Below, piece by piece: positions 16,681 through 40,195 of a stretch of DNA of 64,000 nucleotides. The notes beneath the pieces are model-generated. The model saw only the letters and a list, made by a program, of their open reading frames with translations. It was not told the DNA's origin and did no database searches. Position 1 is the first letter of the stretch; each line of letters starts with the position of its first letter. The DNA lies in NCBI RefSeq assembly GCF_037975245.1, contig NC_092571.1:26984564-27048563 (forward strand), written 5' to 3'. This DNA is from Apostichopus japonicus (taxonomy: Eukaryota > Echinodermata > Holothuroidea > Aspidochirotida > Stichopodidae). Position numbers and translations under genes: made by a program.

Positions 16681-16689
16681 ATCGAAATT

Positions 16690-16935: not shown

Positions 16936-16936
16936 C

Positions 16937-17212
16937 CGTATGTATGTATGTATGTATGTATGTATGTATGTATATGTGATCTTCCCGCAAGCAGGAACTC
17001 GCGAAAGAAGCCATGGAGGCTTATAGACTCGCAAGCTGACCGAAGCCAATCTCTCGGCACACATCCATTTAACGTCCATGTCGGGAAGTTGTTATTGAAC
17101 AACACCCTTGCCAGACGACACACATTGCTGTCGGCGGGGAATCGAACCGGGGATCTCATGACTGGGAGACGCCGGCGTTAACCACTAGGCTATACACTCC
17201 GCCTATACACTC
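16937..17212 (-). mobile_element. tRNA-derived SINE with (CATA)n tail
   Basis: The minus strand begins with a tRNA-like head. A box A (TAGCCTAGTGG, complement of 17182-17192) and a box B (GGTTCGATTCC, complement of 17138-17148) stand about 35 bases apart, as in a tRNA gene. An unrelated body of about 150 bases follows, and the element ends in roughly nine CATA units (16937-16975). There is no matching acceptor stem, so it is not a functional tRNA. It lies immediately downstream of, and in the same orientation as, the LINE at 17322-18701. Confidence 0.75.
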
Positions 17213-17321
17213 CGTCACCCTCATCAGGAATGAAATGCTCCGTCCTTCGTCTTCGTCTTCGATACGGTGACACATCCGCAAAAAGGGACAATATCTCACC
17301 ACACACACGTCAAGAGAGTAA

Positions 17322-18701
17322 TTAATTAGATCTGACCCGAGTACTGATATAAGTGACAGGATTCACAGAACCACTGGAACTACTAATGAGGTCTGAAGGC
17401 AGACTATTCCAATCCCTAATTGTATTTGGAAAAAAACTATACTTATAGCAATTTGTACTGGCATACAGCTGGCAGAAATGCATATCATGCATGTTCCGAC
17501 TCCTACGCAGAGGCTTTCTTAGGCAGTCAATAGGGATCTGAGCCTGACCATAGATGCCCTTAGCAAATAAGATGATTCTACTTTGTCTGCGCCTCTCTGC
17601 CAAGGGCACCAGGTTTAGGTCCCGTAACAGAGATGAGACAGAGCCAGGCTCTCTTGAATAATCTGAAGCGATGAAACGGGCTGCACGCCTCTGAATGTTT
17701 TCGAGGTTGTGCTGCAAGAAAGCTTGGTGGGGATCCCAGACAGAACTGGCATATTCCAATACTGGCAGGAGGAGACCTTTATATGCAGCCAATTTTGCAT
17801 CCTTCGAACAGGGGGATAAGTTTCTACGAAGAACTCCCAATATCCTATTTCCTTTATTACACACATTTTGAATATGCTTTCCCCAGTTGAGATCTGAAGT
17901 GATATGAATACCCAGATATTTAACACAATCAACCTTAACCAAGTGAACCCCATTGAGCATGTAATTGAAAATTACAGGTTTCCTCTTTCTAGTAATGGTC
18001 ATAATGTTACATTTCACCGGCTGGAAACTCATGCCCCAATCTTTAGCCCATTGCCCTAGTATATTTATATCTTCCTGAAGTTGATGACCATCACTGACAT
18101 CATCGATAACCCGATAACAGACACAGTCATCAGCGAACAGTCGGACACCAGAAGAAACAGCATTACCAATATCATTTATGTAGGCCAGGAAGAGAATGGG
18201 TCCCAGAACTGACCCTTGCGGAACACCGGAAGTAACCTTAGAAGGATTAGACCTAGACCCATTGACAACAACCGACTGCTCTCTATCACTCAGAAAAGCA
18301 TCCACCCAGCAGAGAACCTGATGTGAAACACCCATAGTGTACAGTTTAGATTTCAATAATTCGTGAGGAACAGTGTCAAAAGCCTTCTCAAAATCAAGGA
18401 TGAAGACATCCACTTGCTTTCTTTGGTCAAGGGAGGAGGCCCATTCGTTGATGACAGAAACGAGCTGGGTCTCGCAGCTATGGTATTTCCTGAATGCATG
18501 CTGATTGGCAGACAAGATGTTATTATTCTGGAAATGCTCCATGATATTAGAACTGATTATGTGCTCCAAGAGCTTGCAGCAGATACTAGTAAGGGAAACA
18601 GGGCGATAATTACATGGCGAGGATACATCATTCTTCTTATATATGGGGCAGATGTTAGCAGTTCTCCAATCCAGACACTTTCGATGGAATGCCTTGATCG
18701 T
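17322..18701 (-). CDS. 5'-truncated CR1/L2-like non-LTR retrotransposon reverse transcriptase
   Basis: Carboxy-terminal 460 codons of a LINE reverse transcriptase. The frame is open from 18701, just below an in-frame stop at 18702-18704. RT motifs appear in order: ANICPIYKKND..NYRPVSLTS (near the start), HAFRKYHSCETQL, DFEKAFDTVPH (first catalytic Asp), SGVPQGSVLGPILFLAYIND, LFADDC (catalytic Asp pair), CVKYLGIHI and the LEYASSVWDP thumb/C-terminal region ending in FFPNTIRDWNSLP. The endonuclease and ORF1 are missing, as expected for 5' truncation. The frame has no internal stop, so insertion is recent or the copy young. A 3' UTR of about 100 bases separates it from the SINE. Clade assignment rests on general motif resemblance. 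Confidence 0.88.
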   Translation of the reverse strand, partial: TIKAFHRKCLDWRTANICPIYKKNDVSSPCNYRPVSLTSICCKLLEHIISSNIMEHFQNNNILSANQHAFRKYHSCETQLVSVINEWASSLDQRKQVDVFILDFEKAFDTVPHELLKSKLYTMGVSHQVLCWVDAFLSDREQSVVVNGSRSNPSKVTSGVPQGSVLGPILFLAYINDIGNAVSSGVRLFADDCVCYRVIDDVSDGHQLQEDINILGQWAKDWGMSFQPVKCNIMTITRKRKPVIFNYMLNGVHLVKVDCVKYLGIHITSDLNWGKHIQNVCNKGNRILGVLRRNLSPCSKDAKLAAYKGLLLPVLEYASSVWDPHQAFLQHNLENIQRRAARFIASDYSREPGSVSSLLRDLNLVPLAERRRQSRIILFAKGIYGQAQIPIDCLRKPLRRSRNMHDMHFCQLYASTNCYKYSFFPNTIRDWNSLPSDLISSSSGSVNPVTYISTRVRSN

Positions 18702-18754
18702 TTATCGTGAGGGATATTCATTTGGTTTTTTACTGAATGAGAGCGCTATTTACG

Positions 18755-18830
18755 AACGAAGTGATTATTCGCAGGGCAGCCCGGCGAATAACGTACACAG
18801 ACACCTTATTCGCAGGGCTGTGACGATTTT
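18755..18830. repeat. Dispersed copy of the ATTCGCAGGGC dyad repeat
   Basis: Two copies of TTATTCGCAGGGC occur, the first as a near-complete dyad TTATTCGCAGGGC-A-GCCCGGCGAATAA. These are the hairpin units of the minisatellite at 39300-39732. This copy sits just beyond the LINE truncation point. Confidence 0.7.
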
Positions 18831-19211
18831 GAAAATAGGTTTATTATTGGCTCTCGATGACATCATTTTTATGTGACGTCATTCATTTAACCTCTGCACC
18901 TTAACGGCGCGCAAACCCGAACACCGAATTTCTTTGATCAATGTATTGTAGTTTGAGGCTTTCACTTCAGAATCAGATTCACTGTCTTTGCCGGGTTTTT
19001 ATGGAGAAAGTTCCTGCGACATTTTAAATATCATTAATTATTAGCAAAATATTATTCAAATATGATTTGAACCGACTGACATAAGAAGAAACTTACGATT
19101 CAACCCCTGCTAGGCCCAACGTAGGTAGCCTAGGCCCTAGCCTGAAATACTAAATGAACAGACCAACGGTTAGCCACTGCCTAGGCATGCTAACGTTAGG
19201 TGTAGGTAGTG

Positions 19212-19468
19212 ATGGAACAGTTGGCTCCAAATCATGAGTTTGAATCGTTTGCAAGTTTTCAGCGTTTTTTTCAAGAATTTTGCTCAACAAAGAACTATAT
19301 TTATTGTATTGGAGACAGCAGAACAGCCACCTACGCTAATAAAAACTTGCCACAGGATTCAACACCCTTCAACGCTGCTAAATTCAAGTACTCATATGTC
19401 AAGTATGTGTGTAAACACTACGGTGAGAAGAAAAAAACAGAGAGCAAAGGGATTCGCCCAAATCAAAG
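19212..19468 (+). CDS. Exon 1 of the fusion gene: start of FAR1-type DNA-binding domain
   Basis: ATG at 19212 opens 85 codons plus two bases, read as FESFASFQRFFQEF..., then KFKYSYVKYVCKHYG. This is the N-terminal pattern of ZSWIM3/FAR1-like proteins; a Cys (67) is the first zinc ligand. The donor is CAAAG|GTTTGT. The spliced junction makes an Arg codon (AG|A) and continues into TGCKSF on exon 2, which carries the remaining ligands. A full CRE palindrome (TGACGTCA, 18874-18881) lies about 330 bases upstream; no TATA box is evident. Confidence 0.75.
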
Positions 19469-22400
19469 GTTTGTTTAATGTTTCAAAGTAGCTATTCTTA
19501 CGACTGTTCGTAAGAATAATTTCCGACTACGCATGCGCAGTTGCTATTTTTATGACAGGAGTAACAATAATATCCGGTTAGGGTTAGTGTTAGGATTGGG
19601 GTTTAGGGTTAAAGTTAGGGTTACCCCTACTACATGCGCAGTTGCTTTATTTACTTAAATGCGCTTGAATTCGCCTTTGTCGTAAGAATAGTTATAAATA
19701 ATTGTTACGACTAGTCGTAAGAATAGCCAAGGCCGTAATGTTTATGCACTTGTCAATTGTATGACGTACCACAGGTCCCCCGGGGATGGGTGCGTCATTT
19801 GCATCCTTGAGTCTTGACGCACCCCTGCGTAGTATATTTAATGTACCTGACCATTGCATATTTTTACACACCTTAATTTTATTTTGTGATGCACCAAATG
19901 GGGCAAATGACTGCATGTCCTTATGACGCACATACACTGTGTAAATACTACTAATAGTAATACTGTACTACGTTCCAATATTTGCTTTACCACCTTTCAT
20001 AGGGAAATACAAGTTACAAGTGACGCATCCATTTCTTATAGCGTGACGGACCATTACTTTAGTGTACTTTGACACACCCCGCACCCCTGCGTCCAAATTT
20101 GACTGGACATGACGCACCCATTGGTTCTGTGGTCTGTCATGCAATTGACAAGTGCATCAATCATTTATCATAATCTAGACGCTTGACTCATTAACGTATA
20201 GGGCACGCTACCATTGATTTTCATATCGGTGCTTTGCGATAGGCTGCATAGGAAAAACCTAAAATTGTGTCGATTTTTGTTTTTTTTAAAAAAAAACTAT
20301 CACATCGCCCCATGCCAATTACAAATTTGATCTTCAAATTGGCCAAGAATGCCCACACCCCTCCCATGAATCCCATTCCAAATCCTATCATCAGCCTGCC
20401 TCTTCCATGCAGTGGGTGGGGCTTAAAGTGAAAATCATGAAATGGACATATTTTGGCAACCGAATGTCCATTGCTTTTTTCATATTGTTATCTCACTTGG
20501 AACACTGGTAGCCCTTGAATAGCAGATTGTTTGTGGTGACAATGTGATGCATATCAATGAGTGAGCAGGGCTTTAAGTGCTAATCTTTAAATGGTCATAA
20601 TTTGACAGTCAAGTGTTCCATTTGTTTTTGTATACAATGTGAAAACAGCAGCGCCGGAACCACATAACCTTTTCGTCATTGTATTAACATTTTATCATAT
20701 TTAACAACAACAAAATTTCTGCTGCTCATTTTTAGTTCTGCCTTTTTTTTAAAAGAACATTTACTTTCTTTTTTCCAGAACTTTCAAAACGGGTTGCAAG
20801 TCATTCATTCATCTCGCTGCTGACAGAGTAAAAGACAAGCTTGTTGTTGTTTCTTGTGAGCTTGAACACACACATGAGACGAGTGAAGAACACTATCAGC
20901 GATATCCAGAAAGCAGAAGACTGTCTGAAGAGAGAAAGGAAATAGTAGGTACTTTATCTGCATTATCCGTGGCTCCCGCTGATATCTGCCAACATATAGC
21001 CAAACTGCATGGTAAGATACTGACAGTTCAAGATATTCAGAATGTAAGAAATGAGGGGAAAACAAAACATGAACTAAACAGCATTCTGGAAGTTTTAGGA
21101 GAGTTTTGCCAGAAACATGAAGAGAATACTGTAGTACTAAAGACAAGCAGTGATGGAGAGCTCCAGGGAATATTTCTCCAAAGTGTGGAACACAAACAAA
21201 GCCATGTGAAATTCCCAGAGTTGGTTCACATTGATGGAACCTACAGGGTTAATAATAGGAAGTTCTGCCTATATACAGCTCTGGTGGAAGATGGCAATGG
21301 ACATGGTGTTCCCGTCGGGTATGCGCTATTGAAAGATGAGTCGAAAGAAAGTATCAACTTTTTTCTGAAGACTCTAAAAGATTCAAATGAGGGCATGACC
21401 AGAGCAAGAACATTTATTATTGACAAAGATTTCACTGAAATAGCAGTTTTGAGTGAATTATTTCCTGTGGCCAACATTCAACTTTGCCTTTTCCATGTGC
21501 TTAACTTTTCGCCTGGCGATTAATAAATTGGCAACGACAGAAGATGTAAAGCAGGCAATAAGGACTTGCATACAGTCTATTGCTTATGCCAACTATGAGG
21601 AGATATTCAACCAGTCAGTGAAGAATATGGAGGAAGTTGCCACATCTGACTTTATTAAGTACTTTCATGACAATTGGAGCAGTTGTGTTCATCTTTGGGC
21701 CGCTTTCAAAACAAAATCGTACCAGAACCTGAGAACCCGCACCAACAATCGCTTAGAGCGTCACAACAAGGAACTGAAAACTGTTTTAAACAGTCAAATA
21801 ACAATTGCAGATTGCATCAAGGGGATACTAAGGAAGGCTATCCACATGAAGAACAAAACTACACAGGGTCAATTTCTTTCTTCGGTTTGTGTTTCATATA
21901 ATGTCCATGATACAAATGACACAATAAAACAAATCCGGAATGTTGCAACACAATATGCAGCAAACTTGACGATAAATCAATATCAACTGGCACAACAGCT
22001 AAAGCCGAATGCAGCTGTCGTAATTAATGCATCACATTATTCAGTTTCGCTTCAGGGCAATTTGGCAGAAGTTGAAGTTAACCCGAAATGCTCTTGTTCA
22101 TGCAGTTTTTGGAAGATCACACAACTGCCGTGCCGACATATATTTATCATTGCATTACAAGAAAATCTGCAATTTGATGACAACTGGATACCCGATAGAT
22201 GGCGCAAGTCCTATCAGAGACAAGCTTTTGATTTCCCATGTTCAACTACAGCTGGTATTTTTGTAACATCCACTGAAACCAAGAAGTTGAACAGAATTCA
22301 GAAGTTCAAGAAAATGCAGCAAACACTGCTTAAAATTGGTGACATTTGCTCAGAAGTTTCACAAGAGGAGTTTGAACACAGGTTCCAGCAAGTAAGCACT

Positions 22401-25400
22401 CTCTATCAGGCATGGGAGAAAGGTCTGACTGTCAACATTGAGGTAGATTTAGTCCACTTAGAAATAAATCAGGCAAGCACAGATGTGGACAAAGATGAGC
22501 AGAATTCAAACAGCCATTCCTCCAGTCAAACCAGTTCAAAACTAGATGATAACACTTCAGCAGTCAGTAACATTAAAAAGTCAGACAGCCTTTCAGCAAG
22601 CAATGACATAAGAATTTCAGACAACACTTCGGCAGGCAGTGACATCATCAAATCAGACAGCACTTCAGCAGTTAGTAACATCAGAAAATCAGTCGACACT
22701 CCAGCAGGAAGTGACGTCAGAGACTCAGACAACACATCAGCAGGCAGTGACGTCAGAAATTCAGATACTTATACAGGCAATGATGTCAGACAATCAGACC
22801 ATAATACATCAGCAGGTAGTGATGTTAGAAAGTCAGGTAACACTCCAGCAGGAAGTGACATCAGAAAATCTGATGATAAAACTTCAGCAGGCAGTGACAA
22901 AACAAAATCAGTGAGTCCAGAGAATAAGACAAAGCAAAACCTCAAGAGAAAAACACCATTTCAACTGGAAAAGGATGGATTGTACTTGCCACGACTATCA
23001 AAAGTCAGGGGACGACCCAAGGGGAGTATGACCTCGGTTCTAGGAATTAGCAAAAGGAAATCACCACCAGTTGATAACACATCAAAGATTGCAGATGTTG
23101 GTCAACGTAGTAAGCGACAGATTAAGACCTCTGAAGAATCTCAAAAGAAGAAGCTAAAGAAGAATAAAGTAAAGTTGGTACAGACGAAACAGGTTACAAA
23201 TAAAGAACTGGAGAGAAACTTGGAAACATACACTGATGTATCAAATTTGAAGGCAGTATTAGCATTCCTGTCTGAAATTAGACTCAATATTTCAAAAGGT
23301 ATCAATGGAAGCTTGAAATTGTTGAAAATAGACTCACATGATCCTGCTAATGGAATCATATATGAAGCTGCTCAAGACAGTGATCTTGAAACTGTTTCTG
23401 ATACTATATTGAATCTTTCATCAACACTAATTCAGGGAGAAACACCTGGAAGGCGGACAGATTTGTTTCAGCTCTTGAGCTCAACTGTTCTGATTGCAGT
23501 GAAGGATGGTTTAGACATATCATCTATAAAGCAAATGCTGACTAAGAGGCCATCACATCTTGCTGATCTCCCAGAGACAGTGGTCAGTATACCCAAGGAG
23601 AAAAGAAAACTTGGAAGCACCACATTTGTTCCAACTGATTTGGAAACACTTCTACCTGGCAAGTGGCTTAATGATCAGGTAAGGGTTGAATATGACTTTG
23701 TATATGAAAATGTGCTCTAAATTATTTTCAGATATTTATTGACTTCACTATTGAATCAAGTTGAAGTGAAGCAAAAGTGCTATGCACACATAGTAATTGC
23801 TGGAAAAATAGTTGAACAATGATATTTGCCCTGAATACATGTGCATGAAAAATAATGAAAGAAATGTGCCATTAGCAAATTTACCAAACATGGGACACTC
23901 ATACTTTTGTGATCATTGCTGCCTTAGTGTGAATATGTTTCAAGTTTAATATTCAATAGAAGACGGACAGTTAGAGGTGCTTAAATTTGTCTGCCTCTAG
24001 ATCTTGAAACAAAAAGCATCAAAAGATTTGCTTGAATGTGATCAAATTGTGTCCTACAGTGCCAGTGTGCTGCTTGTACTGTCAGAAAATACTTTTTATA
24101 AAACTTTTATAAAAGATTTATAAAGCTTTCTTTACATTGCAATAGTTAAGATAAGAAAAATATTCAATAATTCAGTCAAGCAGCTTGCATTTCTCTTGGT
24201 TGTTGAGATGCAAGAACCCTTTTAAGCAAATACACCATGTTAACATGATTGGAAAGTTAGGCCTATTGCTGCAAAAGACTGCATTGAAGTGCATATATAG
24301 AGCTTGTTGTAAACTATCTCAAAGCACTTTACAATTATGACCCTGGTCACTGGGCCTTAACACTCCTGAAACCATTCTCAACTCACTGAGGAGTATACTG
24401 TGTGTACACTCTAAAACATGTGCAGCTTTAGTCAAAGGCTACATTGAAGTTGGATGTATTTTAGCTGAAAGTACATCAATTAATAAGGGGCTATATACTT
24501 AAAAACTACTGTATGTTTGAAGTTGAGACAAATTTTTATATCTTCCAGATCATACACTGCTACTTGAATTTACTAATGCAGGAGCACCCTGGAAAGTGCT
24601 ATGTGTTACCTTGCTTCTTGGCCATGAAATGGCAAAAAGGTCAATACCAAGACTGGCTGTACAAGAAGGTAAGCATCAATATTGATATATAAATTAACAC
24701 TCTCATAATAAAGCTGTGTGTCCGTAGTGCGTAATCTGTGAAGGCAAATTGTTCTCATTGATTCAACGTTATGTTGTTTCCACGTGTCCATAACGTAAAT
24801 TGGAAACACCCTAATGTGAAATCAATGAGAGTGACTAGTCTTTACAGATCACGCATCACACCCTTCAGACACATGGAAAACATGTTAAGCTTAAAATTGC
24901 CTTTTTTATACTATCATAAATTCAACACTTAGTTTATGAATTAGATAATTAATAGTTACTGCAATTTCAAATAAATGTATTCAGTGGTCTGTGGATGACA
25001 AATAACCAAAAATATATATACCTGTATATTCCTAAGATAAACTTAGTACAACATACAGTTTAAGAGGTTAGATGGATACAATACTCATTTCATCACTTAC
25101 TTGAAGGTTGAATATTCAAAAATATTCAAAAATTTCCACTTACTCCACTCAATCTGCCAAGTTTTCTTTTGAAGCTACAGTAATAAACACCATCAATTAT
25201 TGTACCAGAAGCCATCTGTGGAGCTTCAGGACCTTGCACCTAAATATGTGGTCAACTTGGAAGCCCATCATCCTTATGATTTTTATCACAGAAGTATTGC
25301 TTGTCTAGAACTTAAAGGGTAAATAGACTGTTTTTGTTATTTACAGGTGGATTTTGGGAGCTTTCATTGGATTTTTATGCCAGTCCACAAAAACAACCAC

Positions 25401-28400
25401 TGGTTTCTTTTAGTAGTGGATATGGTTGAGCAGACAGTTGGCATCCTTAATTCTTTGCCTAATGAGAAGGAAGAGTCTTCAATCTTGGAACAATGGGAGT
25501 AAGTTATCTTTGTAGTTCACTCTGTCATAAACTGAAAGATATATGACCTAGAAATATTATATGTTGAATGATAGAGCTTTATTACCTTCCATTGGGTATG
25601 GGAGGTACCTAAAAATTGCCAAAATTCGTTTTAGACAAATATTACCATCCTCATAAAGTTTCATCGAAATCCAAGAGGGTCAACATGGGAACTTATCAGA
25701 AATTTGGTTGATTTGATATGGATTGACTCACCAAGATTTTTAATAGAATAGCAATATGTACGGTTCTCATTGCGTTTAATAGCTATGCTTGAGCTTTACA
25801 AACACCAGTCATCAAGTTTTGTACATCACCCTACCTGTTATTAAAGTTTAAGGCCCTTTCACACATACACATGACGCGACGATGAGATTTTTCATCGAAT
25901 TTGCGATAAAACGTGAATGAAATCTCATCAAAATCTCATCAAAATGTAACTTCAAAAATTTAACATTACAAAAGCACACTGTTGTTAGCTCAGAAATATA
26001 TGCAAAAATGAAGGTTCATGCATGTTAGGCCAAAAATCGCACAAGGGCAAAAAATTGCGTGGTGACCCAAAGCGATTTTTTCTTTCCGGAAAATATTTCA
26101 CAATTATTTTATGTTTCGGGAAACTTTTGCACTCAAACTAAAGATTTAATGAATATCTTCATTTCGTTTAAAAATAAACACAAATGATACTTCCATCAAC
26201 ATTTTATAAAATGTTTTATGCAAAAATTGTGTTGTGTGCAGTGGGCAAGGACCTTTACACTGAACACATAACACAAAAAAACCCATTTAAATGATACTGA
26301 GGGGTCGGGGGTAAGCCTATCAAGAAGTTGAGATACTGTATGCCAGTGATACAGCATTAAAAGTAGAACTTGAAGCAACGCTTGGCAGCCTTGTCAAGAG
26401 TAACACATAAATCAGAAGAGTAGACAAAAACTATGGTGGCTAGAAATGGCTAGAAATACCTATCCAAGTTTTTGAAAGCCATAAATTCACAATCATACAT
26501 GCTATTATACTGACAAAATTTTGTTGAAGTACATAGAAGGGCCATTCTATGGAAAGTAACATATGGCCCCAGCAGACCCTAAGAGTCACCCAAGGATCTG
26601 CTGGGGCCATTCTATGGAAAGTCACACACATAATGTACCAGTGAATGGCCCCAGAAGTACCTAAAATTCACATTAAGTCCAATGCAAAAGCCATTTACAG
26701 TAGTTTGGAATAACACAGAAGTATTGTAGGACTCTGGGAGTTTCCAGGCCTGGTCTTACCCCTATCACCCACTGATTTGTTAGGAAATAATGCAGATCTA
26801 TTTTCCTCCTTTTAGTACATACATCACACAACGGAGTGATGTCACTGGCATCTCATGTGGTAAATTCAGACAAATCCGGTGCAAATCAGGTCGACAGCAT
26901 GATGGACATAGCTGTGGAATATTTGTGCTGATGGTAGGTTATGACTTTTATTCTTTAATTGTATGCTAAATACAGAGTGTGTACCAGATAAGGCTGGCCC
27001 TTTCAGTACAGGCTTTGAAAAGAAAAAAAGCTGTTGATAATCTGCCTGCAGATAAAAGGCAATTGCCCTGTCCTTACTGCAAATATCCTTGCCTCGAAAA
27101 TCCGACTTAATAGTTACGTTACCACAACAGTTGAATTTAATATCATCATTGGTATCTATGGACTACCAAGTAGGCTTCTATGGGAATTACTGCCAAGTGG
27201 ACAGGGAATATATAGAAGTCATTTTAATTGTGGGCGCATTGTTTAACAAGTCCTAAAATTTGGTCAATTGTGGCAGTGGTTAATGATGTAGTTTGAATAA
27301 ATCATTTCTATTACAATTTCTTCTAAAAAGGATGGCATTGAAAAATTAATTTTCCTTATAATTAGAATTTGCAGGGTAAACTCCATCTAATCTGTCCACA
27401 TGTCATTCCAAACAACCACATTACTTCAGCTGGTATCTTAATTTCTAATGGAAATTCATAATAAGTGCCATTTACATTTTGACTGTTTATGATATTTGCA
27501 AACAATTATAACAAAGTTTAAAGTCTGAAAGTTAGCAAAATATAAAAGAATGTTAATGGAGCTTTGCAGCTGGCGTATACTTAAAAACTCAGACTTGCCA
27601 ACTTATGCCACATTCGTTTTTAATCACACGTTTGGTTTATCAATCCTCTTTGATATTTGATGAGTGAGTTACAGTGGGCTTTCGTACAACATAACTGATA
27701 ATCTCTACTTCTGAGCATACATGTGGCTTTAAGAATCACTCACATGTTGTAGGCACTGCCACACATATTTGCAGTCTTGAAGTTCAAAATGCTGTGAAAC
27801 AACCAAAATAGGGGCCCAATGCCATTGTTGAATATGTTGATGCTTAATGTTTGCTACATGCATGCAAAGTTTAAACACTCTTGAAGATGGAATAAATTTT
27901 TCAAATTGTTTAGAAAAAAATCTCAAATTTGAGATGTTGGGTTACATACCCATGTTGAGCTGAAATACCACATAGTTTGAAAGTTTGGAATGCAATAAAA
28001 GACCTTAATTAAACTATATGATATTGTGATAGCCCCACCCATTCCACCTTAATTTTGGATATTTTGTACTATTTATCATGAAATATGTTTCATTTTATCT
28101 ATTCCTTTTTAGTATATGCTAATCCTATTTTGTTTTCTACTTCCTTATAGAATGCTGAGGCAATGTTAAACATGGTCAACCCTTGTGTAATGAGACAACA
28201 TCACAGCTCAATGTACAGGACGTATGTGATGAATAGGCTCATTCGGGATTCTAAGGGAAATAAGAATGTATACTGTGACCTTCCATTTTGTCTGAAACCT
28301 TCAGGTAAAGTGTTGTGGGTCGAATGTGACCACTGCAATAGGTGGTGTCACTTTGCATGTTGTCAGGTTTCTTCTGTGGATCATAGGCAACCATTTAAGT

Positions 28401-28417
28401 GTGTTATCTGCAAATAA
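19212..28417 (+). CDS. MULE transposase - SWIM - Ulp1 protease - PHD finger fusion gene (six exons)
   Basis: Exons by GT/AG borders and phase: 19212-19468, 20779-23678, 24549-24668, 25347-25498, 26816-26933, 28151-28417; about 1270 residues. Domains in order: FAR1/GCM-type zinc cluster (C67, C92, H116, H118); MULE DDE nuclease (DGTY at ~238, IDKD at ~301-303, CLFH CxxH motif, NNRLERHNKELK with the Glu at ~412); SWIM finger CxCx9CxH (~527-541); ~12-residue repeats; AT-hook RGRPKG; Ulp1/C48 protease; PHD finger ending at the stop. DNA binding and cleavage plus SUMO/ubiquitin-like protein processing are inferred from the families. Exon 2 has one frame break at ~21503. Ulp1 capture is known for plant Kaonashi-type MULEs; a PHD added to this set is not familiar to me. 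Introns hold several MITEs; no flanking TIRs were found. Live transposon or domesticated gene: unresolved. Confidence 0.85.
19491..19727. mobile_element. MITE with GCTATTCTTACGACT ends and telomere-like core (intron 1)
   Basis: Left end GCTATTCTTACGACTGTTCG and right end complement GGCTATTCTTACGACTAGTC form inverted arms of about 30 bases. Each arm contains its own small dyad, and inner arms share GCAACTGCGCATG. The core 19575-19625 is a degenerate TTAGGG-like run. Target duplication is not clear. Confidence 0.65.
19745..20156. mobile_element. 412-bp MITE with TGCACTTGTCAATTG ends (intron 1)
   Basis: Terminal inverted repeats begin TGCACTTGTCAATTGTATGAC on the left and TGCACTTGTCAATTGCATGAC on the right. 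Both arms continue with ACCACAG and GGGTGCGTCAT blocks, about 60 bases in all with substitutions. No transposase. The superfamily is not assigned because no clear target duplication is visible. Confidence 0.7.
20779..23678 (+). CDS. Exon 2: MULE DDE transposase, SWIM finger, repeat linker, AT-hook
   Basis: Acceptor TTTTCCAG|AACTTTC and donor GATCAG|GTAAGG. The first frame runs to a stop near 21523. The second carries everything from about 21504. Joining L(CTT, 21500-21502) to T(ACT, 21504) skips one A; equally, two bases may be missing, since related proteins read HVLKTFR here. DDE residues, the CxxH motif and the SWIM ligands all survive, so selection acted until recently or the break is an assembly error. 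After SWIM come acidic, Ser-rich repeats (22540-22917), a basic stretch with RGRPKG, and a helical region leading into the Ulp1 start FVPTDLETLLPGKWLND. Confidence 0.8.
22540..22917 (+). repeat. In-frame ~36-bp degenerate tandem repeat (SAGSDVRKSDNT)
   Basis: About ten diverged copies of a 12-residue unit, consensus T-S-A-G-S-D-V/I-R-K-S-D-N. They form a polar, probably disordered linker between the SWIM finger and the AT-hook. Because unit length is a multiple of three, other frames also stay open here and mean nothing. Confidence 0.85.
24549..26933 (+). CDS. Exons 3-5: Ulp1/SENP-like cysteine protease domain
   Basis: Three exons (24549-24668, 25347-25498, 26816-26933) in consistent phase continue from PGKWLNDQ in exon 2. 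Exon 3 gives YLNLLMQEHPGKCYVLPCF. Exon 4 gives the His box (NNHWFLLVVD). Exon 5 gives the Gln and Cys boxes (GRQHDGHSCGIFVLM) with Gln six residues before Cys, as in Ulp1. The position 17 residues after the His, an Asp in yeast Ulp1 (VDSLSNG), is Asn here (ILNSLPN). C48 proteases mature or remove SUMO-type modifiers. The target of this one is unknown, and the Asn raises doubt about full activity. Confidence 0.85.
24716..24872. mobile_element. Palindromic ~157-bp MITE in intron 3
   Basis: The two halves are inverted copies: left GTGTGTCCGTAGTGCGTAATCTG... and right (complement) GTGTCTGAAGGGTGTGATGCGTGATCTG..., both followed by AAG and CTCATTGATT. The structure could fold into one long hairpin. 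Target duplication not determined. Confidence 0.65.
28151..28417 (+). CDS. Exon 6: C-terminal PHD finger
   Basis: Acceptor CCTTATAG|AATGCTG; the frame runs to TAA at 28417. About 40 residues close the protease fold, then comes a C4HC3 zinc pattern: YCDLPFC, then WVECDHC, NRWCHFAC, and FKCVIC one residue from the stop. PHD fingers usually read histone H3 tails, so the domain might steer the protein to chromatin. That role is inference. Confidence 0.8.
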   Translation, partial: NAEAMLNMVNPCVMRQHHSSMYRTYVMNRLIRDSKGNKNVYCDLPFCLKPSGKVLWVECDHCNRWCHFACCQVSSVDHRQPFKCVICK

Positions 28418-28681
28418 GAAATTGTTAAAGGAATATTCCCATTGATTTTTCATTTTTTGATAATTGATAGGGAATATTTTTACAATCAATCTGGAGAAGA
28501 AACTTCTTTGATACCATTTCCCATCCTCGAGTTATGGAATTTCAAAGTTATAGCAAAACTGATTTGCACACTGCCAATGGATATGGGTGATGATGTCAGA
28601 TAGTCATGGGTGATGATGTCAGATGATGTCAGATGTCAGACACTTGAAACAATATTTGTTTCTCTTTATTATTACATAAAG
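28418..28681. other. 3' flank of the fusion gene; short dyads, no gene
   Basis: Holds an imperfect dyad around ATTCCCATTGAT ... ATTGATAGGGAAT and repeated GATGATGTCAGAT words. It could be the remnant of a further TIR element. No match to the DNA upstream of 19212 was seen that would mark MULE ends. Confidence 0.35.
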
Positions 28682-29037
28682 TTAAAGAGGCCATGACACG
28701 AAAAATCCAACTCATCGAGAGTAACTTCCTCTGAATCTATGAGAAAATCTATGTTCAAAACTATCCTCAACACCTTGAAAACCTCAAGGACTAATTAGTA
28801 ATTAACGTTTTAATATTCGCATCCGAAAATAGATATCTGAGAATGCGATTTCACAACAAGACAATGATGACGTCATGTTAGGAACACACGTGCAAAGCCC
28901 AGGCATGTATCGGATACGCGACGATCATACCGTTCCATATACACGCACATTTACACTGAGAGAACAACCACTGTATTACGCTATATCGTTAGAAATTTCA
29001 AGTTTGTTTTTCAACTGTTGTAAACTATCCGGGAGAA

Positions 29038-29283
29038 ATGCCAGTCCGTTATGTTGTTGGGGGTTGCATAAATATCATTACCCATGCAATTAGCCTTCAT
29101 CCATGGTTGAAGGACGAAAAAAACACGGCGATTATGACCAAGTTAGTGCACAACACCAGGGCCGATTTCACTGGGCCTAGCCAGTATGCAGCTCCGAATG
29201 AAGCGAACACTTCACGGAAGCATACTACGATCCCTCCTTTTTGTTATGAAATAAAACAAATGGACTTTAACGGTTCGACATAA
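29038..29283 (+). pseudogene. Decayed THAP zinc-finger domain
   Basis: Reads MPVRYVVGGCINII..., then TRADFTGPSQYAA and PPFCYEIKQMDFNGS, a THAP layout as in transposon proteins that begin MP-RCVVGGCSN. The first zinc-binding Cys is Tyr here, and the usual C-x2-H-F segment after SQY is lost, so it cannot fold as a normal THAP finger. THAP domains bind transposon ends. Its place 350 bases inside the TTAA element suggests it was the start of the transposase gene. Confidence 0.65.
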
Positions 29284-30552
29284 AAGAGTCATTCTTCTGT
29301 CAAGTAATCCACAAAAAACTACTCTGAAGACCAGATCGGGGAACAGGAAACCTCCAATGGGGCAAGTGGCGATCCTTAGGAGGTAGCGCGCCGAGCACTA
29401 GTAGTACTATAGTATTAGCGTTACTACACTGAAGTCGCAATAGACGAAGAGATTTTACTGTATCATCTAAATTAACACCCCCTTCATTGCTCTATTGTAT
29501 ACTAATAAGCTATGAGGTTAGCTTCAAATGCAATGGGTTACATCTTCTTGTGAACAAATCTCAGTGCCCCAATTTATTTCTGGAATATGCTGGATCAGTT
29601 AGTTATAGCAATAATTTCTTATTCCTATTCCAGGAAAACCATTTTTTATGTTGTGGAGGGAGTGGGGGTAATGGGGATGGGTCAAAATAGGTAGGTAAAA
29701 AGATTTTATTCCAAAGGGTGTTTAATTAAATCTCAAAGCGATTTATTTTAAAGTCACAGAGCCAAAAATTCACACAACATAGTTCAAGTGTTAAATCATT
29801 GAACAAAATTTATTCAATATCAGTTCTAGACAGTCATTCTGGACAATCTGAACTAACATTAACAACAATCATTGTATTATATGACATAAAAGTAAAACTG
29901 TACTTTCCATAAACATTATCATTCTTAAATAACACTAATGTGATTTGTGACATCAAAGGAGGTTAAAAGAAAACAACTTACATGAATTTTTTTGCTTTAA
30001 GCCTACAAAGCAGTTGCATGTCCATCGCTATCAATCGTTGTTGTGACAAATTAATTAGAATAATCCAGAATCAAATACAATAAAGGGTTATTTAAACCAA
30101 GAAACACTGCACGAAGTAACTCACATGCAAAAATGTTACACAAGCACGACGACACGTACAACACTGATGATGGGCAATGTGAAACACAGCATCACACGCA
30201 TTAAAACAATCAAAGACCATTAACAGGGTGTACTGCTGAGTTTTTGAAGAAAGACTACAAAACAAACCAACTGCTGCTGAAGAAACAAAGTCTAAACATT
30301 CAAGAGTTCTGCTGCCTCCATTGGTCTTTATTATGACTTTTCTGTCAAATATCATTGGTGATATGGATATTTTGGCTTCCAGATTAAAGGTACGAATCAA
30401 ACGTCTGGGAGGTAAATGCCCCTAAAAAGGTCAATGCCCGTTCCCTTATGCACATATTATATGACATCACGGTCACGCCAATACTTGTGTCCAAATGCTT
30501 CAAAACATGCCTTTTCTTTCATTGTTGATGTTGGGTCTGGAAAATAACCTTT

Positions 30553-31549
30553 TCATCCTGAATTAAAAGTCTTGAATTTCAATATATCAACACTGAGGGA
30601 ACCCTGACGGTTGATAATCCAACACAATTGTAGTTTAGAAAAGGTGTTCCTGGAGGAATTTCTCAACCAAGGCTTCCTATACAATGAGTTTTCTCCTGGC
30701 AACTTGAATCCAGTGTAATGACCATTGGCTGGAAAATCACTTCTGATCCTTTGGACTGCACATGATGGTAGCACAACCCTGACGTGTCTTGCTTGGAACC
30801 CCAAGTATCATTGAACCTGTTGACCGTAGGCTATGTATCTGTACTGCCTGGGAAAAAATTTATGAAAGTTAAAAATGTATTAATGTTGGCCATGATGTCC
30901 ACAATAACAAGCAGGCATACAATGTACAGTTATGGTTACATTTGTTGTGATTTTACACCTTCCGTGTATCATGAAACATTCTTTTGTTTCAGAAAATTAA
31001 TTTGCAAAACTCCAGGCCAAAGTACTAGCCAAGTAATAATGAGTATGAAATAACACATATGCCTACCTAGCATGGCTGCATAATGCAACTTACATCCCCG
31101 AGCCAAACTTTCAGTATGCAACAACCCTACTAGTACTACACACTCTACATATGAGTTGTAAGTTACCGTAACACAACGCACAATACGGTTTAGGGTGTTC
31201 CGCGAATTCCAACAACACATGCACAAAATGGACTGGATTTTGTTTTTAAATGCTTCGTTAATAAATTCTTACCACGTTGTATGTTCCTTGCAATGGTTTC
31301 GAACGTATTTCTTCTTCGATATGTTGTGGAGCTTCAATTTCGGCTCGTTTAACAGGCTCGAACTGATACGGTTCTAACACCTCCGCTCCACCCTCAACGT
31401 TCGGTTCAATATTGGAATGATCATCGCCTTCACTCTCTGCTTCGAATATGAGAAAGGGCACTCTAATTATAGCCCAATTTCTCACTGCCTAGTGAAGAAC
31501 CATTATCACTTTGAACTTCGGTTGCCGCAATTGGTTCTGGATCCGTCAT
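30553..31549 (-). pseudogene. Decayed P2X7 C-terminal ('ballast') domain gene in a transposon
   Basis: Exon A (31549-31273): ATG then MTDPEPIAATEVQ, a frame break, then an acidic run with VLEPYQFEPV, ending at donor ACGTG|GTAAGA. Exon B (30847-30553): YRYIAY, an in-frame TGA where family members have Trp, then RHVRVVLPSCAVQRIRSDFP and HYTGFKLPG. The last part matches the end of vertebrate P2X7 (LPSCC..RIRKEFP..YSGFK). Standalone proteins with this zinc-binding domain are common in invertebrates. A Cys-rich middle section (usually WC.C..C) was not found. One frameshift and one nonsense codon show it is dead. Confidence 0.75.
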
Positions 31550-31930
31550 TTCACAGGAAATTTTGATTTGATATCGCACTTGTGATCGGTGTTTTGTTTA
31601 GTAACTACTAGTGGTATGTGTACTTGTCTACTGTGTACGTGAATGGTATATTCGGAGGATCGTAAATGTGTTCAAAACGTGACGTCAGATGACGTCATGC
31701 GAATCGGAAAATTTTCGAGTAAACAAAGTTTCAAACGCCGAAAAGGGTAAATTCATTCTCAATTTTCGACTTGAAAAATCAAGTTTTAAACTGGCAGAAT
31801 GGTTGATACATGTTCTAGAGAACATTCTTTGATGGATCCCAAAAATATAGGACTTTGAAATTTTCGTGTCATGGCCACTTTAATTTTCTCTAAACCCTTA
31901 CCTTCAGTAAGGCTAAAACCTGAATATATT

Positions 31931-34900
31931 AAGAAAGCCTAACTATCTTCCAGGTCACAATTTTAGAGAGTGAAACATTTGCAATAAGCCAGTCCTGCCA
32001 TCTGCTAGTTTTCTACATGTATGCAATTTTTTTGACTTTTTGGTCACTTTTATTTTTTCTTTAGTTCTTATTCTTGATAAGCATATCTCAGGAACCACAC
32101 ACTCAAGTTATTTTATATTCTATACAGTTATGATGTTGTCTCTTGCCTCTGAAAGAAATTTTTAAAGCCAAAGATTTATTCCATATTTATAATGTTTATG
32201 ATGTATTCCAGACAAAACATTTTAAAACTTTTTCTTGTATCAGCAAAACAAAGAAGGAGGGATAAATATGTTAATGATAGCTGTGAAATATACCAAACAA
32301 CTTAAATTGAAATACATATTCTTTTCATTTGAAAACATTTACTTGTATATCAACAAAATGTAAATATGTTAAGATAGACACGATGTATTAAGAAACAAAG
32401 GTTTTCATTTCTATACATTTTCAAGCAGAGTTTTATGTTTTGTTTCATAAATATTGTTTATACTTCAAAGATTTTGTAGCATTTATAAACAGGGTAGGAA
32501 TGTAAACATGTTTAATACAGAAAGCAGTTGGAAAATGACATCTTGAGGTTTTTTTTAAATTCAAACTTATATGCGGTCAGAGCGGATTGTAGAAGCTAAG
32601 GTATTCCATATCTGTAAAGCTGAAAGACTTATCACTATTTTCAAACAACAAAAACTAAAACCTTTTTTTCTGGTATCAGCAAGACAAGTAGAAAGGATTA
32701 AGATTTTATTGAGAGCGGTGGAATAGACCAAAGACTCCAAATGTACACCAACCAAATGTAAATATGTTAAGAGTTGGTTTAATAGGATGTATTAAGAAAC
32801 GGAAAACCTCTTTATATTTCTACACTTTAATCAATATAAGTGTTTTAAGTAATATAAGTACATTTAATAATCTGATAAGAACTATACCTATCTGTGCATT
32901 TCATGGATGTTGTTTACACAGGGTCTGCATTCCCAGAATATTCTTCAAATTATTCTTTCAGTTTCATTCTGGTATTTTATGTTTTAATGATAAAGTTTCA
33001 ATTATGTTTTCTGTGTGTGTACCCTGTTGCTCCAATGGTTATAATCGATATATTAAGAAAGCCTAACTATCTTCCAGGTCACAATTTTAGAGAGTGAAAC
33101 ATTTGCAATAAGCCAGTCCTGCCATCTGCTAGTTTTCTACATGTATGCAATTTTTTTGACTTTTTGGTCACTTTTATTTTTTCTTTAGTTCTTATTTTTG
33201 ATAAGCATATCTCAGGAACCACACACTCAAGTTATTTTATATTCTATACAGTTATGATGTTTGTCTCTTGCCTCTGAAAGAATTTTTTAAAGCCAAGTCT
33301 TTATTCCATATCTATAAAGTTTATCATGTATTCCATATCAACAAAGCCAAAGACTTGTCCTTATTTTTTCTTTTTCAAACAGTAAATTTTAAAACTTTTT
33401 CTTGTATCAGCAAAACAAAGTAGGAAGGATAAATATTTTAATGATAGCTGTGAAATAGACCAAACAACTTAAATTGAAATACATATTCTTTTTGTTAGAA
33501 AACATGTCATGATAAATTTACTTGTACATCAACAAAATTTAAATATGTTAAGATGGACAGGATGTATTGAGAAACAAAGGTTTTCATTTCTATACATTTT
33601 TAAGCAAAGTTTTATATTTGTTTCATAATTTGTTGTTATATTTCAATGATTTATAAGCAGGGTAGGAAAGGAGATAAGTTTAATACAGAAAGCAGTTGGA
33701 AAAAGACATCTTGAGGTTTTTTTTTTAATTCAAACTTATGCGGTCAGAGCAGATTGTAGGAGCAAAGGTATTCCATATCTGTAAAGCTGAAAGACTGATC
33801 ACTATTTATTCTTTTTCAAACAACAAAAACTAAAACCTTTTTTCTGGTATCGGCAAGACAAGTAGAAAGGATTAAGATTTTATTGAGAGCGGTGGAATAG
33901 ACCAAAGACTCCAAATGTACACCAACCAAATGTAAATATGTTAAGAGATGGTTTAATAGGATGTATTAAGAAACGGAAAACCTCTTTATATTTCTACACT
34001 TTAATCAATATAAGTGTTTTAAGTGATATAAGTACATTTAATAATCTGATAAGAACTATACCTATCTGTGCATTTCATGGATGTTGTTTACACAGGGTCT
34101 GCATTCCCAGAATATTCTTCAAATTATTCTTTCAGTTTCATTCTGGTATTTTATGTTTTAATGATAAAGTTTCAATTATGTTTTCTGTGTGTGTACCCTG
34201 TTGCTCCAATGGTTATAATCGATATATTAAGAAAGCCTAACTATCTTCCAGGTCACAATTTTAGAGAGTGAAACATTTGCAATAAGCCAGTCCTGCCATC
34301 TGCTAGTTTTCTACATGTATGCAATTTTTTTGACTTTTTGGTCACTTTTATTTTTTCTTTAGTTCTTATTTTTGATAAGCATATCTCAGGAACCACACAC
34401 TCAAGTTATTTTATATTCTATACAGTTATGATGTTTGTCTCTTGTCTCTGAAAGAATTTTTTAAAGCCAAGTCTTTATTCCATATCTATAAAGTTTATCA
34501 TGTATTCCATATCAACAAAGCCAAAGACTTGTCCTTATTTTTTCTTTTTCAAACAGTAAATTTTAAAACTTTTTCTTGTATCAGCAAAACAAAGTAGGAA
34601 GGATAAATATTTTAATGATAGCTGTGAAATAGACCAAACAACTTAAATTGAAATACTTATTCTTTTTGTTAGAAAACATGTCATGATAAATTTACTTGTA
34701 CATCAACAAAATTTAAATATGTTAAGATGGACAGGATGTATTGAGAAACAAAGGTTTTCATTTCTATACATTTTTAAGCAAAGTTTTATATTTGTTTCAT
34801 AATTTGTTGTTATATTTCAATGATTTATAAGCAGGGTAGGAAAGGAGATAAGTTTAATACAGAAAGCAGTTGGAAAAAGACATCTTGAGGTTTTTTTTTT

Positions 34901-35150
34901 AATTCAAACTTATGCGGTCAGAGCAGATTGTAGGAGCAAAGGTATTCCATATCTGTAAAGCTGAAAGACATCACTATTTATTCTTTTTCAAACAACAAAA
35001 ACTAAAACCTTTTTTCTGGTATCGGCAAGACAAGTAGAAAGGATTAAGATTTTATTGAGAGCGGTGGAATAGACCAAAGACTCCAAATGTACACCAACCA
35101 AATGTAAATATGTTAAGAGATGGTTTAAAAGGATGTATTAAGAAATGAAA
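31931..35150. repeat. AT-rich higher-order tandem array, ~1.12-1.17 kb units, 2.8 copies
   Basis: The landmark AAGAAAGCCTAACTATCTTC starts at 31931, 33055 and 34229, giving periods of 1124 and 1174 bases. Copies 2 and 3 are almost identical; copy 1 is more diverged. Each unit is itself a diverged dimer: 'CAGCAAAACAAAGTAGGAAGG ... GAAATAGACCAAA' is echoed about 430 bases later by 'CGGCAAGACAAGTAGAAAGG ... GGAATAGACCAAAGACT'. The duplicated 101-codon frames at 32764 and 33938 are copies of AT-rich repeat, not genes. The third copy breaks off at about 35150. Confidence 0.9.
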
Positions 35151-37526
35151 AAGGCTTTTAATATTTTTCAATTTTAAGTAATTTAGCTCAGTTTTGTTTT
35201 TCAGTTTTGAAGCAATTTTAGGATTGATTCTTGGTTTCCTATATCTGTTTTTTTTTTAGATTTTCTATTCAATCTGTTTATATTAAGAGAGGAAAAGATT
35301 AATGAAAGAGTATGATTTAAATCACAATCACATACAAGGCGTATTATAGAATTAAACATTTTTTGTGAGGGAAATTATGAGCAACTATTCCATATTTAGG
35401 TTATGATTATAAAATCTAAATCTGATGACACTTTCCTCTTTATTGATTCAAATGGAGATAGCTTCAGGCCCAGTTAACTTGCATGATCAGAATGTGGAGA
35501 TTCAAATACTAATCTCATTCCACTCATGACTGCCACATTACTGTGCTGCAGTCAAAACGAGTAAGTTCACACTACTGCAATCCTTGAAATTCACTGGAGC
35601 TTCAAAGGGTTTTTGTGCTGCCTTTGATTGCCTACAGCTGTCCCCCTATAAAATTAGAGATAGTTGGATGCCATTTAAATTATTTGATCGAAGTCACCTT
35701 AAAATGCCTTCCCTGAGATCAGTTTCCAGGACTGTTTCAGTTAATTAACACAAACAATTTTTGTGACTCATTATTTTATTTTTTATTTTATTAATATTTT
35801 TGGGGGTTTTGAAGAGAAAACACCAAAGCAACTATTTATGGCGTTGCCCCTTTAAGTTTAATTAGCATTTTGGTTTTCCTATTTACTTGTACCTTAAAGG
35901 ATATGTGCAAAACACAAAGCCTTTCGTGATGCATAAAGTTTGGTAAACATAACTCACAAATGTTGTGTATGACATAATATGTGCATGATATATAATTATG
36001 ATAATATGCTTTGTAGAGCAAATGCTTTATTTAAAGGTATTATGTAGCAATTCTTCCTGATTAAAGGGGAATATTGACATGAGAAAAATTTCCCAAATGT
36101 GTTTTTCTTGACCCTTCCACAGATAAAATGTATTTGTTCAACAAAATGAATGAGTAATTCAGTTTTCAGACTGGAATTTACATTAAAACCCCAAATTATT
36201 TACATTTAACTGCAGAGGAGGGAAAATAAAGATGAATAAGTTCTTTCAGTGGGGATCTTACCCGGTACTGGTACCCGGTACCTATTGATTGAGTTGAAAG
36301 AATAGCACACTCTGCCACATACTTGACGGGAAGTCAAAGAGTAATTTTAAGGTTGTTTTCTCTTCAGTGTTATAGTAGGAGTTCATGAGGTAGTGATGAT
36401 TATTTTCATTGGCTCATTTCATTCAGTTTTAACCAGTCACAGACAATTCGTTCCCTTAAATTAAATTTAGAAAAATATGCATCAATTTCTTTTGAAATTG
36501 ACATATCAATGTATAAGATAAAAATATTCAAACAGATTTGACTCAAAATTGTGGAAATGTTTCTCAAACTTCATCCAGGATTAGAATAATCCACAGAGTT
36601 AAGATAGATTAAATACTCCCATCCATTATTCAGTAAAGTATTGTAAATTCTGTGTACTTTTCTTATTGCTCCTTGCGTTAAGACCCAATTTATATCATTT
36701 TTTGAGACAAAAAGTGTATCTTTCATGAGTTGTTTGCAAAAACTTAACTTGTAATGTACAGTAAATAGTTTTGAAATACAAAAGTACAGTGATACAAAAG
36801 CTAATGTTGCCTTCTTATTTCTCAATTTGCATAGAATATGTAGAAAGTAAATTGCAAATATAGCTTTGAAAGTATGGTTGACACTATGCAGGGGTTGGGG
36901 TGAATGGATCCTTCATTTTTTTTTTTTCCAGTGCAGCTATTAAACCCAGAAAAGTCATAGTTTGAAGGATGACCATATTCCATCACTTTCTCAGGAATCT
37001 TAGATGAGGTTTTATCACCAAAAAATTCATGGCAGACCATCAGACCCAATTTTAATTTCTCATCAATTTAGCTTGTTTATGCTAAAACTAATAGTTGTAT
37101 AAAAAACAGTGTTAGACGGCCAGTTAATGCATCACTTTACAAGCTTCCAAGGAACGGCATAGCTAAAGGAGGCGAGGGTGGTTCCCCCATCCTCCCCTGC
37201 CCAAGGAAATTGGCTCATTAGGAAATTTCTCGGGTCCCCATACTGATATCAATTTCAAAATGTGTATGAGGCAAAAGCCAATTTCAGGGACATCAAATAT
37301 CATATGTTATGGGTCCCATATTTATGAGATGCAAAAAGGGCCTCTGAAAAGTCAATTTTGGGGTCCTCAGTTATGCCAATCTTTAAGGCCCCATAACGTG
37401 AAATATAGGTTCTACTTAAGCCATATTTGAGGGGCTTGAAAGGCTGGTTTTGCTATTGATACCAGTCAGTTTAGGGGCCTTGAAAAAGCCAACCTTTTGG
37501 GCCCAACTAGTCTTAGCCACTTTATA
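35151..37526. other. No gene seen; degenerate GGGGCC/AAAGCC-type short repeats near the end
   Basis: AT-rich sequence with short frames only. From about 37165 to 37510, and again at 38650-39055, loosely repeated words such as GGGGCC, CCCCAAA and AAAGCCAA appear. They suggest one old degenerate repeat tract split by the hAT element between them. Confidence 0.4.
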
Positions 37527-39266: not shown

Positions 39267-39299
39267 GAATAAGGTGTATGTGTCTGGCTTTTTGCTGCC

Positions 39300-39732
39300 C
39301 TGCGAATAAGATGACTATGTCCGGCTATTCGCAGGGCAGCCCTGCGAATAAGATGTCTGTGTCCGGCTATTCGCAGGGCTGCCCAACGAATAAGATGTCT
39401 GTGTTCGCTTATTCGCAGGGCTGCCCTGCGAATAAGATGTCTGTGTCCGGCTATTCGCAGGGCTGCCCTACGAATAAGATGTCTGTGTTCGCTTATTCGC
39501 AGGGCTGCCCTGCGAATAAGATGTCTATGTCCGGCTATTCGCAGGGCTGCCCTGCGAATAAGATGTCTGTGTTCGCTTATTCGCAGGGCTGCCCTGCGAA
39601 TAAGATGTCTATTTCCGGCTATTCGCAGGGCTGCCCTGCGAATAAGATGTCTGTGTTCGCTTATTCGCAGGGCTGCCCTGCGAATAAGATGTCTATGTCC
39701 GGCTATTCGCAGGGCTGCCCTGCGAATAAGCC
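39300..39732. repeat. 42-bp minisatellite built of hairpin units, alternating in an 84-bp pattern
   Basis: About ten tandem copies of a 42-base unit. Each holds the dyad TTATTCGCAGGGC-T-GCCCTGCGAATAA (or the CTATTCGC variant), so every unit can form a hairpin. Two unit types alternate over most of the array (GTCCGGCTATTCG and GTTCGCTTATTCG), a higher-order 84-base period. Because 42 is divisible by three, long frames stay open on both strands without being genes. An older degenerate unit at 39267-39299 carries the target of the U2-headed insertion. Confidence 0.92.
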
Positions 39733-40195
39733 CCACCATTTACGAAAGTCTCAAGACACATACAGTGAATGACAAAAACGCATATGGTGACCGAGTCATT
39801 TTTGCACAGTAGTGTAGTAATGGCACATACATTGTCACCCCTCTCGCGGTCGGCATAACATCGGCATAGCACCTCCACAAGTGGTAAGTACGGCATTAGT
39901 TGATATCAAACTTAAGATAAAAACATATCATTCTGCATAATCATTAACTTTACTAGCTAACATAAGCCCACTTTACATCTCTATAAGAACAGGTTGGACC
40001 ATTTTGAATCTTGAGTACAACTACAATGCTGATATTTTATATATGCTATACAATATTTTCAGGGATTCCATATCTGAATTGTCAATCTCTTGTTTTAAAT
40101 CTTGTATTATGTAGTCAAAAACATATGTGAATCGGCTTATGTACTTCTTTTTCTGTGGGAATCACAACGGTATCTCTTTTATTTTTTGTCCATTT

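Follow-up and report, generated by a model that had tools for sequence, protein, structure and literature searches.

The window, a 64,000-nucleotide stretch of the genome of the holothurian Apostichopus japonicus (C11:26984564-27048563; the genome is 671.6 Mb in 35 contigs, C1-C35), holds on its plus strand a transposase gene with its start codon at 19212. The gene has six exons, with GT..AG at every border, and is only part of a 21-kb element, in which it is the one gene recognised. It encodes a zinc-binding N-terminus of the ZSWIM3/FAR1 type, an RNase H-like DDE core, a SWIM finger, an AT-hook-like motif, an Ulp1 domain and a PHD finger. Very probably, the gene is the coding part of a large cut-and-paste transposon of the Mutator superfamily whose transposase is fused to an Ulp1-family cysteine protease and a PHD finger. 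The features are listed here by their positions in the window; C16c denotes the closest long relative, a copy at C16:29.4 Mb.

18748..18756, no strand: left copy of the 9-bp target-site duplication, ATTTACGAA
18757..39737, plus strand: whole transposon, 20,981 bp (break of identity to C16c, 9-bp duplication in register, shared CGAAGTG start)
18757..18818, plus strand: 5' terminal inverted repeat, including one to two units of the 42-bp array (self-comparison)
19212..19468, plus strand: exon 1, start codon and first part of the FAR1/ZSWIM3-type N-terminal domain (splice borders, Pfam)
20779..23678, plus strand: exon 2, rest of the N-terminal domain, RNase H-like DDE domain of MULE (Mutator-like element) type, SWIM, repeat linker, AT-hook-like motif and Ulp1 start (open reading frame, Pfam)
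21497..21507, plus strand: frame break within the MULE domain, at about 21506 (translation of the exon chain; C16c in frame there)
22089-22139, plus strand: SWIM finger in exon 2
22551..22911, plus strand: 36-bp in-frame tandem repeat encoding a Ser/Asp-rich linker (repeat finding)
23004-23030, plus strand: AT-hook-like VRGRPKGSM in exon 2 (by eye)
23664-23678, plus strand: WLNDQ, the beginning of Ulp1, in exon 2
24549..24668, plus strand: exon 3, Ulp1
25347..25498, plus strand: exon 4, Ulp1 His (KNNHW, 25389-25403) and Asn at the Asp position (ILNSLPN, 25443-25463)
26816..26933, plus strand: exon 5, Ulp1 Gln and Cys (RQHDGHSCGIFVLM, 26892-26933)
28151..28417, plus strand: exon 6, end of Ulp1, C4HC3 PHD finger and stop
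31924..35166, no strand: about three tandem copies of a ~1.17-kb unit with no recognised domain (self-comparison; the open reading frame of one unit was scanned, with no Pfam match)
39294..39730, no strand: 42-bp tandem array, 10.4 copies, just inside the 3' end (repeat finding)
39738..39746, no strand: right copy of the 9-bp target-site duplication

Both flanks of 18757-39737 carry the 9-mer ATTTACGAA, identical at nine of nine positions; among the 2,250,000 pairs of positions near the two ends, 120 (5e-5) have identical 9-mers. At the right end, identity to C16c ceases after 39737; the local alignment continues for another three columns, of which one is a mismatch and two are chance matches. 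Set in register, the two ends match at 29 of their first 40 terminal positions. Self-comparison finds 18765-18818 to be 92.7% complementary to 39549-39603 (arms of 54-55 bp), and this 54-bp stretch is the inverse of units of the 42-bp array. Because that array sits 11 kb beyond the stop codon, the ends are absent from the 25 longest of the 61 inverted repeats listed for 16500-31500. A preliminary description of the locus had called for a search for flanking terminal inverted repeats with duplications of 8-10 bp; inverted ends and a 9-bp duplication are what was found. Judged by its sequence features (a MULE-type DDE domain, a 9-bp duplication where 8-11 bp, usually 9, is expected, and terminal inverted repeats), the element is a member of the Mutator superfamily. 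Seven of the 27 open reading frames (of at least 70 amino acids, aa) in its 3' half were scanned for a second gene, and none reached a Pfam cut-off. The transposon's left end is adjoined on the minus strand (17322-18701) by a 459-aa open frame that by eye resembles a reverse transcriptase of the long interspersed nuclear element (LINE) type.

Within the gene, the exon junctions keep phase, and the frame change sits inside exon 2; Pfam was therefore scanned with the two halves of the protein on either side of the break. The best match is ZSWIM1-3_RNaseH-like (1.5e-32). It and MULE (PF10551; 8.2e-19, 68.3 bits against a cut-off of 27.6), Peptidase_C48 (PF02902; 3.5e-17), ZSWIM3_N (1.9e-10), FAR1 (4.8e-7) and SWIM (3.3e-6) are all over their cut-offs, as are three DUF5575 models and ZSWIM1-3_helical. 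The FAR1-type, MULE, SWIM and Ulp1 domains proposed earlier, the last with its His, Gln and Cys boxes, are upheld in this way, and the proposed AT-hook is recognised by eye. Intron 1 contains two adjoining stretches with inverted ends. The first (19484-19734, ~250 bp, 39-nt arms) has an 87% relative at C8:39.04 Mb, is absent from C16c and is probably a small nested element; the second occupies 19737-20165 (34 nt, 88%).

Copies with the same ends are scattered through the genome. With the best 40 of 237 candidates scored for the 5' end and the best 40 of 234 for the 3' end, the former gave at least 46 matches at at least 40 places (the window and 39 others), which answers an earlier call for a copy number, and the latter at least 137 matches, several per place. 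Among the 5'-end matches listed, seven other places match the element's first 92 bases, and these alone, at 100% identity. Genome matches that reach the ends of the queries are no evidence for the ends of the element, since the queries were cut there; the evidence comes from flanks fetched at 16 places where 5' and 3' matches lie close together in the same orientation. Thirteen of these 16 paired copies start with the window's terminal CGAAGTG, with differing flanks. An exact 9-bp duplication is present in the assumed register in 11 of them, and two more have one with a single mismatch; the C20 and C18 copies have an exact duplication once the assumed end is shifted by 1 and 5 bases, respectively, so that 13 of the 16 have one overall. 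The exact target duplications and the seven places identical over the first 92 bases indicate that the family was active and has moved. Target duplications, inverted ends and many copies strongly support the animal MULE transposon of the preliminary description.

The paired copies are mostly short: 14 span 0.66-2.05 kb, too little for the gene, and would therefore be non-autonomous derivatives, presumably moved in trans. The remaining two, C18:7340039 (9.5 kb) and C17:1658143 (10.8 kb), enclose no match from searches with the gene's protein (in one of which the best 48 of 110 candidates were scored); the C17 pair has no 9-bp duplication and is perhaps not one element. An exon-1 match at C1:20317628 sits 0.5 kb after a 5' end at C1:20317124, which implies that part of the gene was once present in one further copy or more.

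More distant relatives were sought through the genome with the MULE model and with the window protein in two pieces. The same domain order, whole or in part, is found at C11:10.78 Mb (C11b), C17:25.58 Mb (C17a), C22:19.23 Mb (C22a), C22:15.13 Mb (C22b), C5:16.23 Mb (C5), C16:26.21 Mb (C16a) and C16:45.23 Mb (C16b); C6:16.01 Mb (C6) has the Ulp1-PHD end only. C5 and C22b are 98% alike over 16 kb, C16a and C6 95-99% in long pieces, C16a and C16b mostly 92-95%, and C11b and C17a mostly 92-98%. MULE and C48 are over the Pfam cut-offs in C22a, C22b and C16a; SWIM is over its cut-off in C22b only (15.1 bits in C22a and 12.6 in C16a, against 19.6), and PHD is at its cut-off in C22b only (24.0 of 24 bits; 14.8 in C22a and 22.9 in C16a). 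C11b and C17a are broken; exon 3 of both and exon 6 of C17a look broken. Since the window's splice phases were imposed when exons were sought in the relatives, agreement in phase does not count as independent evidence; two exons (exon 3 of C16a, exon 5 of C22a) were located by hand. The ratio of nonsynonymous to synonymous substitution rates (dN/dS) was taken from a simple Nei-Gojobori count on chosen exon stretches, with codons containing stops or gaps dropped. C5 and C22b, compared over 1,019 codons in nine stretches free of indels, differ by 11 synonymous and 4 nonsynonymous changes; the resulting ratio, 0.10, suggests purifying selection on these predicted coding exons.

The relatives also bear on whether a MULE transposase gene and a separate Ulp1-PHD gene might simply lie next to one another within one element. 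Some MULEs do have a second open reading frame (PMC6446971, consulted in part), and in the sister families the MULE, SWIM and Ulp1-start sequences fall in separate open stretches, unlike the window's single exon 2. In the window, however, one open stretch (21453-23720, 755 aa) spans the catalytic Glu, SWIM and the WLNDQ beginning of Ulp1, and two separate genes are therefore very unlikely; moreover, in C22a, C22b and C16a, as in the window, a donor site follows directly on the first Ulp1 motif (NDQ/NDK). The two-gene arrangement was rejected on these two grounds as highly improbable, and in the sister families, too, the MULE, SWIM and Ulp1 parts would presumably form one gene.

In three sister families (at C22:19.2369-19.2380, C22:15.1237-15.1244 and C16:26.2035-26.2046 Mb), the region before MULE matches Pfam ALS2CR8 (1e-10 to 3e-14), which we take to be CARF, the calcium-responsive transcription factor. 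These matches suggest that the vertebrate CARF domain and the sister-family transposases may share an origin; a literature search yielded nothing relevant on a tie between ALS2CR8/CARF and transposases. Two further kinds of open frame came to light. Frames of 1,509-1,622 aa at C4:13381058, C3:10487880, C16:44512810, C20:11256391 and C1:3696477 are 26-29% identical to the Ulp1 domain only and constitute, among the matches listed, another repeated Ulp1-bearing family. A 491-aa frame at C8:39.0356-39.0371 Mb has a MULE match, a SWIM-like motif by eye and no Ulp1 match; it is possibly a host ZSWIM1/3-like gene or another MULE.

The protease and PHD parts can be compared with proteins of known structure. 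A search of the PDB matches the Ulp1 part to yeast Ulp1 (1euv, 4e-14) and to SENP1/2. Active C48 SUMO proteases have a His-Asp-Cys triad and an oxyanion Gln, and the Asp of yeast Ulp1 with which the window sequence aligns is presumably the catalytic one. His, Gln and Cys are kept in the window; the Asp position is occupied by Asn there and in C11b, C17a, C22a and C22b/C5, and by Asp in C16a, C16b and C6. Some clan CE proteases use Asn at this position, and Asn alone therefore settles neither an active nor an inactive Ulp1. The complete C4HC3 PHD finger of the preliminary description fares less evenly. Taken alone, this part matches the PHD fingers of PHF13 (1.6e-5) and KDM5B (2.9e-5; phmmer, PDB search). 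Six exon-6 translations were aligned (those of the window, C11b, C22a, C5/C22b, C16a and C16b, leaving aside the broken exon of C17a and that of C6, which is closely similar), and none of them departs from the eight zinc ligands or from Trp at positions 56 and 65. With 12.2 of 24 bits (E 0.19), however, the window's PHD falls short of the Pfam cut-off. The H3K4me3 cage of KDM5-type fingers is built from Trp residues of this kind. Because these residues are conserved, the Ulp1 part may process SUMO and the PHD finger may read chromatin at H3K4me3.

A number of observations weigh against an intact transposase-protease-PHD gene, the frame break foremost among them. Translated straight through, the six-exon chain stops after 333 residues, the frame breaking at ~21506. 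The first Asp (HIDGTY, 21227-21244), the second Asp (IIDKDF, 21416-21433) and the CxxFH motif (21485-21496) share one frame; the catalytic Glu (NNRLERHNKELK, 21744-21779) is in another, the break falling between CxxFH and Glu. The earlier claims of a phase-matched, canonically spliced chain and of an intact DDE set are accordingly half right: splice borders, junction phase and DDE motifs are all there, but not in one frame, and as read the window copy cannot make the whole protein. On either side of the break the halves are open over 328 and 942 residues, and short single-base runs adjoin it, as might be expected if an assembly error or a programmed frameshift disguised an intact autonomous element. 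That explanation is unlikely. C16c, 94.6% identical over 1,358 columns, reads in one frame across the break, so that the family needs no shift, and damage to the window copy is the simplest account of the break; HiFi reads, according to the part of the source consulted, lie behind the published assembly to which this genome seems to correspond (PMC10344927), which makes an error in so short a run improbable. Of the live transposon put forward earlier there remains a family that was active and a window copy that is frame-broken.

The other reservations concern the relatives. C16c is colinear with window 18941-39737, apart from a ~13-kb deletion (22298-35373), insertions, a tandem duplication and other gaps; most of the 3' half of the gene is missing from it, stops are present, and its dN/dS against the window (0.47, 553 codons) indicates weak constraint. 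Among the matches listed (again the best 48 of 110 candidates in one search) there is no intact full-length copy of the window subfamily. Constraint is weaker or not clear for C16a/C16b (0.29, six stretches, 922 codons) and C16a/C6 (0.50, 181 codons). The separate open stretches of the sister families and the Asn of the window's Ulp1, already described, count on the same side, and ends are defined for the window subfamily and not for the C5/C22b, C16a/C16b/C6, C11b/C17a and C22a families. The window element's first ~184 bases were not found within the 565 bases upstream in C16c. At C16:29405577-29406343, a 126-bp stretch of exon 2 is tandemly repeated several times.

The preliminary description had also entertained a domesticated regulator, that is, a host gene derived from a MULE in the manner of vertebrate ZSWIM1 and ZSWIM3, which share the window protein's N-terminal (ZSWIM3), RNase H-like and helical Pfam domains. 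The best Pfam match, the multi-exon structure and the purifying selection indicated for one related pair would suit such a gene. A stable locus free of transposon ends, with an intact frame, is not what is found, however: the gene is frame-broken and sits between transposon ends with a target duplication, and the related families are themselves repeated on several chromosomes. To our knowledge, ZSWIM1 and ZSWIM3 are host genes without Ulp1 or PHD. Domestication is thus extremely improbable and was set aside, and the coding part of a Mutator transposon is retained as the reading of the gene.

Plant MULEs that carry Ulp1 are of the Kaonashi type, and we know of no PHD finger in them. The published sources for this and the following comparisons were consulted in part. 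A MULE with an Ulp1-like protease is on record for Arabidopsis, maize, rice and melon, and Ulp1 also occurs in Mutator (MuDR) transposons of hydra and lancelet (PMC2836005, citing Repbase Reports), which resemble the window element, by description only, as animal Mutators with Ulp1 (C48) in the transposase gene. According to a figure legend in the same paper, Ginger1 and Mutator transposases are aligned there over their Ulp1 and PHD domains. An Ulp1-bearing animal Mutator is thus already in print, and the window element is a further one. Its 21-kb size, array end and ZSWIM3-type N-terminus are given as its own features, the hydra and lancelet elements being known here by description. Ginger1 transposases carry Ulp1 or OTU, and one, hydra Ginger1-9_HM, is a DDE transposase with C-terminal Ulp1 and PHD; it differs in its Gypsy-integrase-type transposase, 4-bp duplication and 3.8-kb length (PMC2836005). 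Rehavkus shares three features with the window element: a PHD finger, target duplications of 9 bp, and a minisatellite that precedes the inverted repeat at the 3' end. It is reported only from insects and annelids, with no mention of Ulp1, in the portion of its source used (PMC6446971), and the window element, compared with it by features, is not assigned to it. A cnidarian MULE has an OTU domain (PMC6446971); arthropod MULEs measure 1.4-10.0 kb, with PHD, Ulp1 and SWIM absent from the main text of their description (PMC13359780). The suggestion that the domain order was undescribed must therefore be narrowed: Ulp1, and Ulp1 aligned with PHD, have precedents in Mutator, and no other animal element with this order appeared in the literature searched for MULE/Mutator with Ulp1, SWIM and PHD, Repbase lying outside that search.

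How the protein might work can be sketched. The zinc and AT-hook parts would bind the element's ends, perhaps at the 42-bp units, and the DDE core would cut and join with a 9-bp stagger. The Ulp1 domain would take SUMO, or some modifier akin to it, off the transposase or off host proteins of silencing or repair. The PHD finger would bind H3 tails, probably H3K4me3; the short copies would be moved in trans. Proteases of this kind have been suggested to act in transposition, perhaps through DNA repair (PMC2836005, in the part consulted). It is conceivable, although we hold it doubtful, that the element carries its own kit for counter-silencing and targeting, in which Ulp1 would strip SUMO from the transposase or from the factors of SUMO-dependent host silencing, and PHD would dock on H3K4me3 so that copies land in open chromatin.

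The locus offers, in one chromosome-scale genome, an animal Mutator element whose ends are defined and which carries protease and chromatin-reader domains, along with many short relatives and with several sister families that have diverged. It makes testable the question of why transposases (MULE, Ginger1) repeatedly join SUMO/ubiquitin proteases. By Pfam match, two kinds of N-terminal domain known from vertebrate proteins, the ZSWIM3 type and the CARF type, are tied to sister families of one transposon group. Were the kit for counter-silencing and targeting real, it would be a general strategy of animal Mutator elements, several diverged families keeping both domains and one of them apparently doing so under clear purifying selection.

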